In this document: positions 3 through 22,085 of the stretch, in pieces | How positions within the stretch are numbered: the first letter of the stretch is position 1 | Layout of the letters: every line of letters starts with the position of its first letter | Origin: Asticcacaulis sp. SL142 | GTDB taxonomy: Bacteria; Pseudomonadota; Alphaproteobacteria; Caulobacterales; Caulobacteraceae | Length of the DNA: 64,000 bases | Direction: 5' to 3' | Assembly (NCBI RefSeq): GCF_026625745.1 | Contig: NZ_CP113061.1 | Location: forward strand, 1,389,501 to 1,453,500 | Made by a program: the position numbers and the translations under genes | Notes under the pieces: model-generated | Seen by the model: only the letters and a program-made list of their open reading frames with translations | What the model was told of the DNA's origin: nothing | Database searches by the model: none

Positions 3-935
3 GGCTTGACGCGGTACTGTGAGCCCTATCCCCTGCCCACGCCGTCGATCAAAGCGGCTGAACTGGTGCTGTCGCCGTCGCGTCAGATCAATGTCGACGC
101 GCGCATCGCTTTAGTCCGCTCGGAACAGTCGCGCCTGCGCCACAAACTGGCCGAGAGCAAGGCTCTGGCCCATTTTGAGCTGAACGACGGCCCGTTTATC
201 CACTTAAAACCGATGGATCTGATCCGCACCCAGACGGCCTTAAAACGCTTTGGCATCAGTGCGCGCAACGCCTATGACGGCTTGCTGCTGCCGATGGGCG
301 ACGCGGCCTTCAATGACCGGATTCTGAACGCCCTTGGGGTGGTCTCCGACGCCAAACCGACCCGTAGAGGCGAGTTCCTGCGCGACACCAAAGAGACTCG
401 CATTTCGGTCCTGGTCGACCTCGATAACCCAAAGCCGATCAGCATTTCCACCGGCGTTGGCTTCTTTGACCATATGCTCGATCAGGTCGCCTCTCACGGC
501 GGGTTTTCGATGCAAGTGGCCTGCGAAGGTGACCTGCACATCGACGCCCACCATACGGTCGAAGATACCATGTTGGCGGTCGGTGCGGCGCTGAAACAAG
601 CGCTGGGTGATCGCATCGGCATGGCCCGCTTTGGCTTTGTCCTGCCGATGGATGAGACCGAAGCCAAGGTCAGCGTCGATCTGGGCGGGCGGCCATTCTG
701 CGTGTTTAAGGGTGAGTTCGAGGCCACCCATATCGGTGATTATCAGACCGAAATGACCGCCCATGCCTTCCGGTCTTTGTCGGAAACGCTTGGAGCCTCG
801 ATCCATGTCGAGGTTTCCGGCGGCAATGATCACCATAAGACCGAGGCCTGTTTCAAGGCGCTGGGCCGCGCCCTGCGACAAGCTACGCGGATTGAAGGGG
901 ATAGCCTGCCGTCAACGAAAGGGATGTTGGCCTAG
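3..935 (+). CDS. hisB: HisC-HisB fusion: C-terminal part of histidinol-phosphate aminotransferase joined to imidazoleglycerol-phosphate dehydratase (5' partial)
   Basis: The frame is open to the left edge, so the true start is outside the window. Counting from the TTG at position 6, residues about 120-309 form a complete imidazoleglycerol-phosphate dehydratase, which makes imidazole-acetol phosphate in histidine synthesis. Metal/catalytic motifs FFDHMLDQ, DAHHTVED, GGNDHHKTEACFKA and LPSTKG are all present. Residues about 7-112 match the C-terminal lobe of histidinol-phosphate aminotransferase (EPYPLPTPS, VLSPSRQINV, RILNALG). No stop or clear internal ribosome site separates the two parts. 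The HAD phosphatase domain that precedes this dehydratase in E. coli HisB is absent. The Arg of the usual HisC motif LRITVG is replaced (LLLPMG), so the aminotransferase part may be altered or inactive. The stop codon overlaps the hisH start by one base. Both domain calls rest on motifs; the activity of the HisC part is unknown because its PLP-lysine region is off the window. Confidence 0.88.
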   Translation, partial: GLTRYCEPYPLPTPSIKAAELVLSPSRQINVDARIALVRSEQSRLRHKLAESKALAHFELNDGPFIHLKPMDLIRTQTALKRFGISARNAYDGLLLPMGDAAFNDRILNALGVVSDAKPTRRGEFLRDTKETRISVLVDLDNPKPISISTGVGFFDHMLDQVASHGGFSMQVACEGDLHIDAHHTVEDTMLAVGAALKQALGDRIGMARFGFVLPMDETEAKVSVDLGGRPFCVFKGEFEATHIGDYQTEMTAHAFRSLSETLGASIHVEVSGGNDHHKTEACFKALGRALRQATRIEGDSLPSTKGMLA

Positions 936-1528
936 TGTCCAGAGTCGTTGTTGTAGAACTGGGTTGCGCCAATACAGCGTCCGTTCTGTTTGCGCTGGAG
1001 CGCTTAGGGGCTGAGGCCGTACTGTCGTCGGATGCGGCTGAGATCGCGTCGGCACCTAAGCTGGTCCTGCCGGGGGTGGGTGCGGCCGGTTTTGCCATGT
1101 CTCAGGCGCGCGAACTGGGTCTGGTTGAGGTATTACGCGGCTATGAGCGTCCGCTGTTAGGGGTATGTCTCGGCCAGCAATTGCTGTTTGAGGCGTCCGA
1201 CGAAGGCGATGTCGAATGCCTGGGGCTTATTCCGGGTAAGGTCACCAAAATGGTCGTCCCCGATGGCTATGTCGTGCCGCACATGGGCTGGAACACGCTG
1301 GAACCGCTCAAGGCCGATCCGCTTAATGACGACGTGGCCGCGGGCGATTATGCCTATTTCGTCCATAGTTTTGTGTGTCCGATCAACGACTATACCCTGA
1401 CCCAATCGACTTACGGCGAACCGTTTGCGGCCATGGTGCGCAAAGGTAACGTCTGGGGCTGCCAGTTCCACCCGGAACGGTCGTCGGCCACCGGTGCCAA
1501 GATTTTGGAGAATTTTTTGAGGCTATGA
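935..1528 (+). CDS. hisH: Imidazole glycerol phosphate synthase, glutaminase subunit HisH
   Basis: Class I glutamine amidotransferase of 197 residues. It hydrolyses glutamine and channels ammonia to HisF for ring closure of imidazole glycerol phosphate. The nucleophile Cys lies in GVCLGQQ (about residue 77) and the His/Glu of the triad in FHPERSS near the C terminus. The signatures CANTASV, PHMGWN and GAKILENFL match the E. coli type of HisH. The GTG start overlaps the hisB stop (TAGTG), indicating translational coupling. A 140-bp repeat region separates it from hisA. Confidence 0.95.
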   Translation: MSRVVVVELGCANTASVLFALERLGAEAVLSSDAAEIASAPKLVLPGVGAAGFAMSQARELGLVEVLRGYERPLLGVCLGQQLLFEASDEGDVECLGLIPGKVTKMVVPDGYVVPHMGWNTLEPLKADPLNDDVAAGDYAYFVHSFVCPINDYTLTQSTYGEPFAAMVRKGNVWGCQFHPERSSATGAKILENFLRL

Positions 1529-1677: not shown

Positions 1678-2424
1678 ATGAGACAGAATGATATGATCCT
1701 CTACCCCGCTATCGACCTGATCAATGGTGCCTGTGTCAGGCTTGCGCAAGGCAAGTTCGATCAGGTGACCCTGTACGATCCCGACCCGTTCAAGCGCCTG
1801 TCGCTGTTCAACGACGAGGCCGCCCAATGGGTGCATATCGTTGACCTTGATGGCGCCAAGGCCGGATCACCGCAGCAGCACGAACTGATCGGGCGTCTGG
1901 CCAAGGCCTCAAAAGCCAAGATTCAGACCGGCGGCGGGGTGCGTTCGCGCGAGCATGTGGCTACCTTGCTTGATGCCGGTGTTTCCGCCGTCGTGGTCGG
2001 ATCGGCGGCGGTCAAAAACCCGGACGAAGTGCGCGGCTGGCTGAAAGACTTCGGCAAGGATCGCATAACCTTGGCGCTGGACGTTTTACCCACAAAAGAC
2101 GGGGACTTTGATGCCGCCCTGCATGGCTGGGTCGAAGGCTCAGGCATATCGCTGTGGGACGTGCTGGATTACTATCCCGCCTCCGTGGCCCAGCGGATTC
2201 TGGTCACTGACGTGTCGCGCGACGGCATGTTGATGGGGCCGAACATGGATCTGATGCGCGCTTTGCGCCAGAAACGCCCTGACCTTGAGATTCAGGCGTC
2301 CGGCGGGGTGAAATCCATCGATGACCTCTATGATCTTAAGGCGCTGGGGGTTCACGGCGCGATTGTCGGTAAGGCGATTTACGAGGGTCTGATTGATCTA
2401 AAGGCAGCGCTCAATGTTAGGTAA
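1678..2424 (+). CDS. hisA: Phosphoribosylformimino-5-aminoimidazole carboxamide ribotide isomerase HisA
   Basis: TIM-barrel isomerase of histidine synthesis (ProFAR to PRFAR). The catalytic aspartates are in YPAIDL near the N terminus and LALDVLP mid-protein. Phosphate-binding loops QTGGGVRS, VVVGSAAVK, ASGGVKS and AIVGKAIYEG are visible. The segment GWVEGSGISLWDVL resembles the E. coli type. The ATG at 1678 has GGGGGAG 5 nt upstream, contributed by the intergenic repeat. The ATG at 1693 begins MILYPAIDL, the usual family N terminus, giving 243 rather than 248 residues. Either start is possible. Confidence 0.95.
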   Translation: MRQNDMILYPAIDLINGACVRLAQGKFDQVTLYDPDPFKRLSLFNDEAAQWVHIVDLDGAKAGSPQQHELIGRLAKASKAKIQTGGGVRSREHVATLLDAGVSAVVVGSAAVKNPDEVRGWLKDFGKDRITLALDVLPTKDGDFDAALHGWVEGSGISLWDVLDYYPASVAQRILVTDVSRDGMLMGPNMDLMRALRQKRPDLEIQASGGVKSIDDLYDLKALGVHGAIVGKAIYEGLIDLKAALNVR

Positions 2425-2477: not shown

Positions 2478-3245
2478 ATGTTGGCTAGACGCATCATCCC
2501 CTGTCTCGATGTCAAGGACGGCAAGGTCGTCAAGGGCGTGCAGTTTGTTGGCCACGAAGTCCTGGGCGACGCCGTGGATATGGCCCTGCGTTACCGTGAC
2601 GAAGGTGCCGATGAGCTGGTGCTGTACGACATCACCGCCTCAGCCGAAGGGCGCACAGTTGATTACAACTGGGTGCGCGACATTGCCCGTGCGCTCGATA
2701 TCCCGTTTTGCGTGGCGGGCGGCATTCGCTCGGCGGAGCAGGCCGTCAAATGCCTCAACAGCGGGGCCGACAAGGTCTCGATCAATTCTCCCGCGCTGGA
2801 ACGGCCCGACCTGATCAACGAACTGGCCGAAATGGCCGGATCGCAGTGCGTGGTTGTCGGTGTGGATTCGCGGGAATTGGACGGTGATTATTACGTCCAC
2901 CAATACTCCGGCGATCCCGATAAAATCCGCGCGGCAGGTAGGCGGACCTTGGATTGGGTGGTCGAAGCCCAGGCGCGTGGTGCCGGTGAAATCGTGCTCA
3001 ACTGTATGAATCAGGACGGCGTCCGTAAGGGCTATGACCTGACGCAATTACGATTGGTGCGCGACCTGATCGATATTCCGCTGGTGGCGTCAGGTGGCGC
3101 CGGTGCGGTCGCGCATTTTACCGACGTATTTGAGCAGTGCGATGTATCGGGCGCCTTGGCGGCGTCTGTGTTCCACAAAAAGATCATCCACATCCTCGAC
3201 CTGAAACGCGACCTTCAAACCGCCGGGATTTCTGTACGGATTTAA
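2478..3245 (+). CDS. hisF: Imidazole glycerol phosphate synthase, cyclase subunit HisF
   Basis: 255-residue TIM-barrel cyclase. With HisH it forms imidazole glycerol phosphate and AICAR. Catalytic Asp residues are in IIPCLDV (residue 11) and VVGVDSR (about 130). The phosphate-binding segments FCVAGGIRS and [10 protein letters not shown] are intact. The run [15 protein letters not shown] and the C-terminal [12 protein letters not shown] closely resemble E. coli HisF, whereas most HisF proteins have a DGT motif here. It sits between hisA and hisIE in the same operon. Confidence 0.95.
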
Positions 3246-3248
3246 TTG

Positions 3249-3287
3249 CCCCTCACCCCAACCCTCTCCCCGCACGCGGGGAGAGGG
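3249..3287 (+). repeat. C/G-rich intergenic hairpin repeat, copy 1
   Basis: Starts CCCCTCACCCCAACC and continues into a stem CTCTCCCCGC / GCGGGGAGAG. A second copy lies inverted at 30726-30764. The purine-rich right arm (GGGAGAGG) lies just before hisIE and may serve as its Shine-Dalgarno region. Similar sequences are widespread between proteobacterial genes. Confidence 0.75.
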
Positions 3288-3298
3288 AGAGACATATC

Positions 3299-3946
3299 AT
3301 GGCCCACGATCACAAACTGAATACCTCGCTCACCCTCACCGATATCGACGCGCTCGATTTCGACAAAGGTAACGGCCTGATCCCCGCGATTGTGCAGCAC
3401 GCCGATACGCTGCAAGTCCTGATGCTGGGTTATATGGATAAGGCGGCTTTGACGGAGACCCTGACGGACGGTCAGGTGACGTTTTTCTCACGTTCCAAAG
3501 GCGGGCGCTGGCATAAGGGCGAAACGTCGGGCGATTTTCTAAACCTTGACCGCATCCTGACCGACTGCGACGAAGACGCCCTGCTGGTCTATGCCCGTCC
3601 GGTCGGGCCGACCTGTCATTTCAAGACGACCTCTTGTTTTGGTGATGAGACCGCCCCCGGCATCGGCTTTATGGGCCAGTTGGCGACGGTCGTGGCTGAG
3701 CGCGCCCATGCCGCACCGACTGATAGCTATACCGCCCGCTTGATGCAAAAGGGTGTGGCCAAGATCGCGCAAAAGGTCGGTGAAGAAGGTCTGGAAACCG
3801 CGTTGGCCGGTCGCTGCGGTGATCTGGATGAACTGCACAACGAAGCCGCTGATCTGCTCTATCACCTGTCGGTGCTACTGATAGCGCGCGAAACCTCGCT
3901 CGACAACGTGCTTGATGTGCTTCGCACGCGACACACCTCTGCTTAG
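3299..3946 (+). CDS. hisI: Bifunctional phosphoribosyl-AMP cyclohydrolase / phosphoribosyl-ATP pyrophosphohydrolase HisIE
   Basis: 215 residues with two domains. Residues about 15-115 are PRA-cyclohydrolase (VLMLGYMDK, VTFFSRSKGGRWHKGETSG, zinc ligands in DCDEDALL, GPTCH and TSCFGD). Residues about 120-215 are PRA-PPase (QKVGEEGLETALA, NEAADLLYHLSVLL). They catalyse steps 2 and 3 of histidine synthesis. In most alphaproteobacteria HisI and HisE are separate proteins; the fused form is typical of Enterobacteria. I chose the ATG at 3299 because it follows GGGAGAGGGAGA and gives the family N terminus. The upstream open frame overlaps hisF and is not supported. It converges with the gene at 3948. 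Confidence 0.94.
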   Translation: MAHDHKLNTSLTLTDIDALDFDKGNGLIPAIVQHADTLQVLMLGYMDKAALTETLTDGQVTFFSRSKGGRWHKGETSGDFLNLDRILTDCDEDALLVYARPVGPTCHFKTTSCFGDETAPGIGFMGQLATVVAERAHAAPTDSYTARLMQKGVAKIAQKVGEEGLETALAGRCGDLDELHNEAADLLYHLSVLLIARETSLDNVLDVLRTRHTSA

Positions 3947-3947
3947 G

Positions 3948-5039
3948 TCACCGCATCGGCGCGGGCGGGGCACCGCACTGGGCCAGCACTTCTTCGCGCG
4001 CATATAGGTGATCGCCGGAGCGCACAACGCGGTAAACCGTCTCGCCTGACGGTACGCAGCCCGGCAAAGCCTTAAGACCGCCCCCCGGGAACCAGCGTTC
4101 ATCTACCTCGAACTTGGCTTTTTTACCCTTGCCTTTGCGGCTCACGGCCCATTGTTCGACGTCCTTTGCTGGCAACAGAGCCCCGACCTCGACCGGTTTT
4201 TCGGTGGCGATGACATTGAGTTCAGACAACTTGGCGTCGTTCGCAAACGCGTCCAACACCGCCTCAGCGCAATAATTGCCGTCGAGACGCTCAGACTTTG
4301 GGCAGTCGCCACCCTTAACGGCCAGATATTGCTGCGCGCCGATCAGGTGACGCTTCTCCGTCACGCCCCACATAGCCCCTGTCGCGGGCGGTGCCTGTCC
4401 TACCGGCGGCTCTTTTGCCGGGATCGTCGCCCCCTGCGCCATATAGCCGCCGTAGCTGAGTTTAACCGGCCCGCCGCACACCACGATCTGCATTTCCTGG
4501 GCGACCAGATTGCCGTCGCGCTTATCCATGCGGTAAAAAACGTCTTCGTCAGGCAGGCTAAAGCAATCTTTTGGGGCGCGTACGGCTGAGGTTTGTATCT
4601 CGATCTTGGCGACGTTGAATTTTGCCGCCTGCCGCGTCACGTCATACAGGGTGAAATCATAGCCATAGGTGCCGCGCACCACTTCACCATCAAATGTCGA
4701 ACGGAATAGCCCGACGACTGTGGCCGACGCCTCTCCCGTCTTGAGCAGGCGGGCAAAGACCGGATCAAAACAGGGGGCGCCGGCCCAGGGCTTACCTTCA
4801 GGCGAACAGTCTGCTGTCGGTAGAGCCACCAGACGCGCCGCCCCCAGCACCATGCGGATTTGTCCATACTGAGGCGCGCTGGACTGGGGGGCGCTGGACT
4901 GGGGGGCGCTGGACTGGGGGGCGCTGGACTGGGGGGCGCTGGTTTTTGGGGCATTGGCCACCGATTGCGCCTGCGAAGTTGCGGCAAATCCTCCGGCAAA
5001 GGCCATACAAACTAATATCGCATGCCACGATTTAATCAC
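3948..5039 (-). CDS. Secreted protein of unknown function with an APQSS tandem repeat
   Basis: 363 residues. The GTG at 5039 is preferred: GGGGGA lies 6 nt upstream and the product begins with a signal peptide (IKSWHAILVCMAFAGGFA, cleavage near SQAQS). A Ser/Ala/Pro/Gln linker follows, built from 15-bp DNA repeats. The mature part has many cysteines (DCSPEG, PCFDP, DCFSLP, GDCPKSERLDGNYCAEAV, PGCVPSG), suggesting disulphides in the periplasm. I do not recognise a family. It is convergent with hisIE and upstream of no obvious operon. Confidence 0.75.
   Translation of the reverse strand: MIKSWHAILVCMAFAGGFAATSQAQSVANAPKTSAPQSSAPQSSAPQSSAPQSSAPQYGQIRMVLGAARLVALPTADCSPEGKPWAGAPCFDPVFARLLKTGEASATVVGLFRSTFDGEVVRGTYGYDFTLYDVTRQAAKFNVAKIEIQTSAVRAPKDCFSLPDEDVFYRMDKRDGNLVAQEMQIVVCGGPVKLSYGGYMAQGATIPAKEPPVGQAPPATGAMWGVTEKRHLIGAQQYLAVKGGDCPKSERLDGNYCAEAVLDAFANDAKLSELNVIATEKPVEVGALLPAKDVEQWAVSRKGKGKKAKFEVDERWFPGGGLKALPGCVPSGETVYRVVRSGDHLYAREEVLAQCGAPPAPMR
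4876..4950 (-). repeat. 15-bp tandem repeat inside the secreted protein gene
   Basis: Four perfect copies of GCGCTGGACTGGGGG (as written on the + strand) at 4876-4935, then one degenerate copy to 4950. It encodes a repeated SAPQS pentapeptide on the - strand. Perfect identity suggests recent slippage, so copy number probably varies between strains. Confidence 0.9.
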
Positions 5040-5154
5040 GCACGTCCCCCGCTTTAGGTCGCTGTTCACTGGCATATTACACCATAGGCGACACTGTCTG
5101 AGCGCAACATAAGTCACGGTTTATGCGGATGTCTATATGGAATTAAAAGGAAAA

Positions 5155-21275: not shown

Positions 21276-22085
21276 ATGACAAAATCCCCGGACTTCGATC
21301 ATCTGGACGCCTTTGCCCAGACCCTCGCCGCCGCCGCCGCACGCATTTCGCTGCCGCTGTTTCGTACCCTGACATTGGGGGCCGACAATAAGCTGGACAA
21401 GGGCTTTGATCCGGTCACCGAAGCCGACAAAGGTGCCGAACGCGCCATCCGTGCGCTCATTTCGGAACACTTCCCCAACCACGGCGTCATCGGCGAAGAA
21501 TATGGCGAGCATCAGCCCGATGCCGAATTTGTCTGGGTGTTAGACCCCATCGATGGCACCCGCGCCTTTATTTCCGGCCTGCCGCTGTGGACGACCTTGA
21601 TCGGTCTGCGCCACCATAATCGCCCCGTCGTCGGCGTCATAGCCCAGCCCTTTTTAGGTGAAATCTTTATCGGCAGCCCCAACCTCGGCTCCCGTCTGAT
21701 CACCGCATCTGGTGAAGTGCCGCTGAAAGTTCGCGATTGCGGCACACTATCCGCCGCCACGCTAGGCACCACCGATCCCTTCCTGTTCAAAGGCATAGAG
21801 GCCGACGCGTTCGGGTCATTGCGAAGTGCGGCCCGCCTGTCACGCTATGGCTGCGACGCCTATGCCTTTGCCATGGTTGCCCAAGGCACGATGGATATCG
21901 CCCTTGAAACCGGCCTGATGGCCTGGGATATCGATGCCATCATTCCGGTGATCGAGAACGCCGGCGGCACCGTCACTGACTGGCACGGTAAACCTGTCGG
22001 CGGCTTTGGCGGTCAGGTGATCGCAGCAGGGACTACAAACGTGCGTGATGAAGCCCTAAGCCACCTTCGTCCGGCCGCGATCTAA
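21276..22085 (+). CDS. hisN: Histidinol-phosphate phosphatase HisN (inositol monophosphatase family)
   Basis: 269 residues. IMPase metal-site motifs in order: DPVTEADKGAE, GEEYGE, LDPIDGTRAFISG and LMAWDIDAI. The loop RAFISGLPLWTTLIGL is typical of HisN-type histidinol-phosphatases rather than SuhB. It converts histidinol phosphate to histidinol in the cytoplasm. This fits the absence of a phosphatase domain in the his operon at the window start. Other IMPase substrates cannot be excluded. Confidence 0.88.
   Translation: MTKSPDFDHLDAFAQTLAAAAARISLPLFRTLTLGADNKLDKGFDPVTEADKGAERAIRALISEHFPNHGVIGEEYGEHQPDAEFVWVLDPIDGTRAFISGLPLWTTLIGLRHHNRPVVGVIAQPFLGEIFIGSPNLGSRLITASGEVPLKVRDCGTLSAATLGTTDPFLFKGIEADAFGSLRSAARLSRYGCDAYAFAMVAQGTMDIALETGLMAWDIDAIIPVIENAGGTVTDWHGKPVGGFGGQVIAAGTTNVRDEALSHLRPAAI

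Follow-up and report, generated by a model that had tools for sequence, protein, structure and literature searches.

A lysine-less HisC lobe fused to imidazoleglycerol-phosphate dehydratase in the histidine operon of Asticcacaulis is a predicted pseudoenzyme domain under purifying selection

The window, that is, the whole stretch of 64,000 nucleotides analysed here (G000:C1:1389501-1453500, + strand), comes from Asticcacaulis sp. SL142, the genome of which is a single 3.7 Mb contig. At its left edge lies a frame (3-935, +) that is open up to a TAG stop and was regarded in the initial annotation as a fusion of histidinol-phosphate aminotransferase (HisC) with imidazoleglycerol-phosphate dehydratase (IGPD, HisB). 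This reading was borne out by a leftward extension of 565 bases, in which the HisC lobe continues and the same frame reaches an ATG at G000:C1:1388936, with GGAAG upstream at a spacing of 8 bases. The product of 499 aa is composed of a HisC-like lobe (~315 aa) and a complete IGPD. The whole protein matches both Aminotran_1_2 (52.4 bits, cut-off 19.7) and IGPD in Pfam, and the part encoded in the window gives 192.3 bits (cut-off 27) for the Pfam IGPD family, together with a weak HisC tail of 27.3 bits. The operon has the order hisG-hisD-fusion-hisH-hisA-hisF-hisIE, with hisG and hisD upstream of the fusion (Table 1). The absence of a phosphatase domain in front of IGPD, also claimed earlier, is visible in the match to NF003937, the model of gammaproteobacterial HisNB, which covers profile positions 165-355 only, and an aminotransferase domain stands there instead. 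The IMPase-type hisN located further along the window scores above the TIGR02067 cut-off, and, in agreement with the earlier proposal, its product is predicted to be the separate phosphatase of the pathway. The HisC-HisB fusion is real, and chance or assembly error is excluded, because the same in-frame fusion is present in 24 Asticcacaulis genomes and 64 genomes of the sister genus.

Table 1. Positions of the histidine synthesis genes and fusion parts in the window
Feature	Position	Strand	Basis
HisC lobe, in-window part, residues 190-315	3..380	+	Leftward frame extension and alignment; lobe starts at G000:C1:1388936
IGPD (HisB) domain, RDTKET to stop	381..935	+	Pfam
LLLPMG, site of the HisC Arg335 motif, Leu here	280..300	+	Residue comparison
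hisH	935..1528	+	GTG start, one-base overlap with the fusion stop; named by resemblance and the order of related operons
hisA	1678..2424	+	Operon order in relatives
hisF	2478..3245	+	Operon order in relatives
hisIE	3281..3946	+	Operon order in relatives; start uncertain, listed frame from 3137
hisN, IMPase-type histidinol-phosphatase (predicted)	21276..22085	+	TIGR02067 302.2 bits (cut-off 275.15); PF00459 170.7 bits

Several features were observed around the operon. The last codons of hisD (ADFRLEV and the stop) are repeated ~75 bases downstream, directly before the fusion ATG (L002:3815-3936, left of the window), and L014, L015 and L017 likewise have a hisD-end repeat in front of the fusion. 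One 20-mer from the spacer that separates hisD and the fusion has four forward and two reverse matches with at most 2 mismatches in its own genome and none in the backward control. The same spacer contains palindromic elements of the form cctcccc...ggggagg in L011, L012, L013, L016, L023 and L033. On the other side, the operon is adjoined by a predicted protein (window 3948-5117, -) that carries a short SSAPQ repeat close to the N-terminus.

The lobe was compared with HisC residue by residue, using numbers and roles that we take, as an assumption, from E. coli HisC; the counts cover 24 Asticcacaulis fusions and 51 of the 64 in-frame lysine-less fusions of the sister genus. In the alignment to E. 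coli HisC (1FG3), the site of the PLP lysine is occupied by Tyr169, within SLSYLYGIGGARVG, ~60 bases to the left of the window edge. Position 214 carries Phe (13/24) or Tyr (11/24) in Asticcacaulis and Leu (47/51), Met (3/51) or Phe (1/51) in the sister genus, where Lys214 is missing from all 64 in-frame fusions (G092, which has it, being excluded). Asn157, Asp85 and the aromatic residue at 110 are gone in all 24 and all 51 sequences, the alignment near positions 110 and 157 being weak in the sister genus, which has deletions there. Tyr55 is gone in 24/24 Asticcacaulis and retained in 49/51 of the sister genus. The replacement of the motif arginine in LLLPMG, noticed already in the initial annotation, was found throughout Asticcacaulis, Arg335 being replaced by Leu in 15 members and by Ile in the other 9 of the 24; in the sister genus Arg335 is retained (50/51). 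The N-terminal lid is absent, since the first residue of the lobe aligns with position 35 of a gammaproteobacterial HisC, and the cut lies at the same point in Asticcacaulis, the sister genus and G009, which also have a Thr-to-Ser change in common. The residues retained include Asp184 and Ser213 (24/24 and 51/51) and Arg222 (23/24 and 51/51), which we assume to be PLP ring and phosphate contacts. Arg222 is Pro in the lysine-less lobes of both L149 (G009) and L133 (G377), which lie apart in the trees. Segments of the lobe are lost in the sister genus and in G009; the G009 lobe is shortened, a large part of it being gone and the remainder kept. A frameshift directly after SLSLAYGLAG in the lobe of L088 (G251) either reflects an error in sequencing or truly interrupts the frame.

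Profiles of the lobe have HisC 1FG3 as their best match (E 5.8e-21 for the Asticcacaulis profile and 1.4e-27 for that of the sister genus), which shows homology to HisC across its main domain, and the TIGR01141 score of 86.8 bits is below the cut-off of 276.55. Compared with HisC (TIGR01141; E. coli 1FG3), the lobe is homologous along most of its length and keeps Asp184, Ser213 and Arg222, but it is fused to IGPD and has neither lid nor Asn157 nor Arg335, and the PLP lysine is replaced by Tyr; because of these losses it is predicted to be catalytically dead. In HisC, as described in the available part of PMC4703992, the lysine holds PLP, the lid comprises ~40 residues and the dimer shares its active sites. 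An AlphaFold model based on six sequences was set aside, its mean pLDDT being 34.6.

The search for this architecture in other genomes, which the initial annotation had recommended, found it in 24 of 25 sampled Asticcacaulis genomes, in 64 of the sister genus and in further members of the order and class. In the family search with the lobe, 111 of 299 genomes matched at E <= 1e-10, many of them through ordinary HisC alone. All 24 Asticcacaulis fusions are lysine-less and in frame, and the lobes of G060 and G075 are 98% and 97% identical to that of the window. In the 25th genome (G153, 87% complete) the only match is another HisC-like gene, which lies outside a his operon. The sister genus, which by our guess is Brevundimonas, has 67 genomes with a match; the 66 loci fetched comprise 64 in-frame lysine-less fusions, G092 with the lysine and G251 with its frameshift, and the weak match of G293 (2.8e-12, the level of ordinary HisC) was excluded from reading. 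The IGPD search gave 130 matches in 139 family genomes, the fused ones (Asticcacaulis, the sister genus and G009) scoring 188-201 bits and the complete matches of other family genera 205-230 bits, mostly in short frames and in some cases in frames of 379-566 codons that were left unread. A search of 299 genomes of the order with the G092 HisC half gave 34 with a match at E <= 1e-45: G092, 28 further fusions in two other families (f4 and f5, at a guess Hyphomonadaceae- and Maricaulaceae-like), three unfused HisC and two loci cut by contig ends. The lysine is present in 27 of these 28 fusions and missing from G377. In the class, 11 of 337 genomes matched at E <= 1e-55, six of them being fusions with the lysine (L150-L155). 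Altogether, Lys214 is kept in 34 of the 35 fusions compared outside Asticcacaulis, the sister genus and G009 (G092 included), the exception being G377 with Ser. These lysine-bearing fusions of G092, f4, f5 and scattered Alphaproteobacteria have the architecture in common with the window gene, and f4, f5 and G092 also the operon, as far as their loci reach; they differ in keeping the lid, the lysine and Asn157 (30/34). Caulobacter-like relatives have a stand-alone HisB of another type.

The dehydratase half appears intact. Its domain covers profile positions 1-144 of 144 in the whole protein (PF00475, 190.8 bits, cut-off 27), and the metal-binding residues H346, H372, H373, E376, H443, H466, H467 and E470 are all present, as judged from motifs matched by eye to the eight Mn ligands of PMC10978614. 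From this completeness we infer that the IGPD half is active in step 6 of histidine synthesis. The gene is like HisB (PF00475) in its complete domain and eight metal ligands and unlike it in the aminotransferase lobe placed in front. The 24 Asticcacaulis genes have no in-frame start near the IGPD half in common, so that neither half seems to be made without the other.

A second complete hisC, which was to be looked for elsewhere, is present in the window's own genome at G000:C1:1841907-1842956, where the free HisC reaches 300.7 bits, above the curated cut-off, and is preceded by a chorismate mutase gene (PF01817). TIGR01141 was searched at E <= 1e-40 in 41 chosen genomes, which are related, so that the following counts are not independent trials. 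A free HisC above the cut-off was found at another place in all 21 genomes with lysine-less fusions (20 from Asticcacaulis, the sister genus and G009, including G251, plus G377). Of the 16 genomes with lysine-bearing fusions (15 of f4/f5 and G092), 11 showed no HisC besides the fusion, and in five (G092, G301, G309, G326 and G476) fusion and free HisC occur together. The remaining four (G153 and three g22 genomes) lie outside both comparison sets. In G009 and G377 the free hisC stands behind hisIE within the his operon. In the tree, the free HisC belongs to a different branch of the family from the fused HisC, and in G092 the two have ~33% identity. In the lineage of the window, step 7 would be performed by the free HisC. 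A second HisC-like gene of the same genome (L148:3208-4368, +; G000:C1:2006354) scores 229.7 bits, under the cut-off, and starts with a twin-arginine-like signal (SRRAVATILALGASAAQ); its product may be exported.

Whether an aminotransferase half with such losses is still constrained was assessed with omega from pairwise codon likelihood. Comparison with the three nearest genomes gave lobe omega values of 0.020, 0.029 and 0.031 (dS 0.48-0.60), and 2dlnL against an omega of 1 amounts to 228, 216 and 184; the free HisC has an omega of 0.053 in one of these three pairs. The 11 Asticcacaulis pairs have lobe omega values of 0.014-0.058 and IGPD values of 0.003-0.079, the lobe being higher in 7/11. 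In seven pairs of the sister genus the values are 0.032-0.116 and 0.013-0.032, lobe dS reaching 2.95-5.40 in three of them. Constraint there is weaker on the lobe than on IGPD in 7/7, and therefore some decay of the lobe is possible in the sister genus. The five pairs of lysine-bearing fusions had dS >2 in both halves, with four running away in one half, and so only rate ratios were used for them. On a fixed topology, the lobe/IGPD rate ratio is 2.58 in Asticcacaulis (24 rows) and 2.97 in the sister genus (50 rows), as against 2.15 in f4 (21 rows) and 2.06 in five f4/f5 rows with G092; these ratios indicate that the loss of catalysis was accompanied by a modest relaxation and by no release from selection. 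The lobe is under strong purifying selection, and on that ground it is probably a constrained pseudoenzyme domain rather than a decaying remnant, its constraint pointing to a non-catalytic function. The initial annotation had supposed the aminotransferase half to be decaying or altered. The second part of this claim stands, and is widened by the loss of the PLP lysine and the lid, but the first does not agree with omega values of 0.02-0.03.

The tree built from the HisC half unites the Asticcacaulis and sister-genus fusions and G009 in one clade (100/100), which lies inside a clade with six more fusions of the order, five with the lysine and G377 (100/97). The six-protein operon tree, built by a quick method with SH-aLRT support only, joins the Caulobacteraceae fusions (97) and places the lysine-bearing G092 beside the sister genus (95), which would need parallel losses of the lysine. 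Holding the lysine-less rows together is not rejected by either data set (p-AU 0.227 for the operon and 0.052 for IGPD), and a single loss in Asticcacaulis, the sister genus and G009 is favoured by their common lid cut. G377 has kept the lid region and is placed beside L137 and L141 (99, operon tree), and therefore at least two losses of the lysine in the order are likely.

The IGPD tree bears on the origin of the fusion. All fusions group there with the gammaproteobacterial HisNB, apart from stand-alone alphaproteobacterial HisB (100/99), a set that includes three Caulobacteraceae. The gene is like HisNB (NF003937) in its IGPD branch, in the order of the operon and in having an extra N-terminal domain, but in HisNB a HAD phosphatase is in front of IGPD, here a HisC lobe, and the score of 280.6 bits falls short of the cut-off of 443. 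In the initial annotation the fusion was described as if an operon with hisC and hisNB had lost the phosphatase in frame, hisC being thereby joined to hisB. The IGPD branch agrees with such an origin, and so does the gene order, which is identical in those HisNB genomes that were read. Against it, the 138 fused frames (duplicates included), with HisC parts of ~280-370 aa and IGPD parts of ~180-200 aa, have no space for a remnant, and direct joining of an adjacent hisC and hisB suffices and is simpler. Moreover, the part of PMC1963479 that was available regards hisNB as an event apart, with gammaproteobacteria as its centre, and holding all fusions together in the IGPD tree is not rejected (p-AU 0.416), so that the branching within the clade is tentative. 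An origin through loss of the phosphatase is improbable in our view, and it is neither shown nor needed.

From the observed architecture, lost residues, free HisC, related states and purifying selection we infer an architectural role for the lobe, and it is with modest confidence that we regard the gene as encoding an active IGPD with a dead N-terminal HisC lobe kept as an architectural module. The ancestral fused lobe would have carried the HisC catalytic residues, as fusions in other families of the order still do. A separate HisC performing step 7 would have left the fused lobe free to lose its lid and PLP lysine, and the lobe would have been retained owing to a continuing dependence of the fused protein on it. 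It would most likely fold and pair as an aminotransferase-like module outside the IGPD particle and support folding, stability or assembly of the dehydratase. An outer location would fit the plant IGPD 24-mer, in which the N-terminal sheet points outward according to the available part of PMC10978614. This reading is supported by the free HisC accompanying lysine-less fusions in 21/21 genomes and lysine-bearing ones in 5/16, by retention of the lobe even when shortened (G009), and by rate ratios of Asticcacaulis and the sister genus close to those of the lysine-bearing fusions. Against it counts that G009 lost much of the lobe, so that the whole of it cannot all be needed, that Caulobacter-like relatives cope with a stand-alone HisB of another type, and that the G251 lobe has a frameshift, be it an error or real.

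A docking and a sensing function are the main rivals to the architectural role. In the former, which we consider unlikely, the dead lobe would pair with the free HisC on the IGPD particle and pass imidazole-acetol phosphate to the active aminotransferase. The lysine-less LCB1 subunit of serine palmitoyltransferase is presumably a precedent, and a free HisC is at hand in every lysine-less genome scanned. The HisC dimer has shared active sites, and the Pro reaching the neighbour's site, as described in the accessible text of PMC4703992, is retained in 23/24 Asticcacaulis and 51/51 sister-genus lobes. The free HisC, however, comes from another branch of the family (~33% identity to the fused one in G092), the Tyr adjoining that Pro is retained in just 4/24 Asticcacaulis, and the lid, which is part of the dimer, is absent. 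In the latter, the lobe would be a non-catalytic binder of PLP, PMP, imidazole-acetol phosphate or histidinol phosphate and would tune IGPD. The near-complete retention of Asp184, Ser213 and Arg222 in both genera would suit such a sensor, but Asn157, Asp85 and the aromatic residue at 110 are gone in all members of both, Tyr55 is gone in Asticcacaulis and Arg222 is Pro in G009 and G377, which makes this quite an unlikely function. A broader reading, that a fused enzyme lost catalysis beside a free copy and was then maintained by strong selection within its neighbour as a non-catalytic dock or substrate sensor, a new organiser of histidine synthesis, is offered tentatively as a possibility on the doubtful side; provided that the trees place G377 correctly, catalysis was lost at least twice.

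The lobe could also be a passenger, a remnant retained solely for lack of a separate IGPD start codon. The want of a common in-frame start in the 24 Asticcacaulis genes, the G251 frameshift and the segments lost in the sister genus and G009 would be in keeping with this, but a reading frame alone would leave the amino acids unconstrained, and with the omega ranges of the 11 and seven pairs given above (0.014-0.058 and 0.032-0.116) it is very unlikely. That the lobe is still an aminotransferase with its lysine relocated to position -4 is scarcely credible, for although this position is Lys in 24/24 Asticcacaulis, where constraint is strong, it is Arg in all other groups compared (the sister genus, G009 and G377 among them), and Asticcacaulis lacks Asn157, Arg335 and the lid and has a free HisC.

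An architectural module of this kind has partial parallels. LCB1 of serine palmitoyltransferase and HisZ, which we take to be pseudoenzyme subunits, may be likened to the lobe as non-catalytic enzyme folds under selection, but they are separate subunits of other families, whereas here the predicted dead domain is fused to the neighbouring enzyme of the same pathway. Gene fusions in the his pathway are already known, and a 2007 survey names five, none with hisC, a word missing from that part of its text which was available (PMC1963479). In titles and abstract openings of open-access papers, no HisC-HisB fusion was found. As far as this literature search reaches, a fused, lysine-less and constrained HisC is new.

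The finding implies that domain-based annotation could assign to these genomes a HisC unable to work. The lobe is kept nearly unchanged across species though presumably dead, which suggests that a job remains for it. Within one order, a lysine-bearing fusion as the sole HisC, a lysine-bearing fusion beside a free HisC, a full-length lysine-less lobe (G377), the lid-less constrained lobes of Asticcacaulis and the sister genus, and the shortened lobe of G009 stand side by side, and this series of states makes it testable how a fused enzyme becomes a non-catalytic module and why it is kept.
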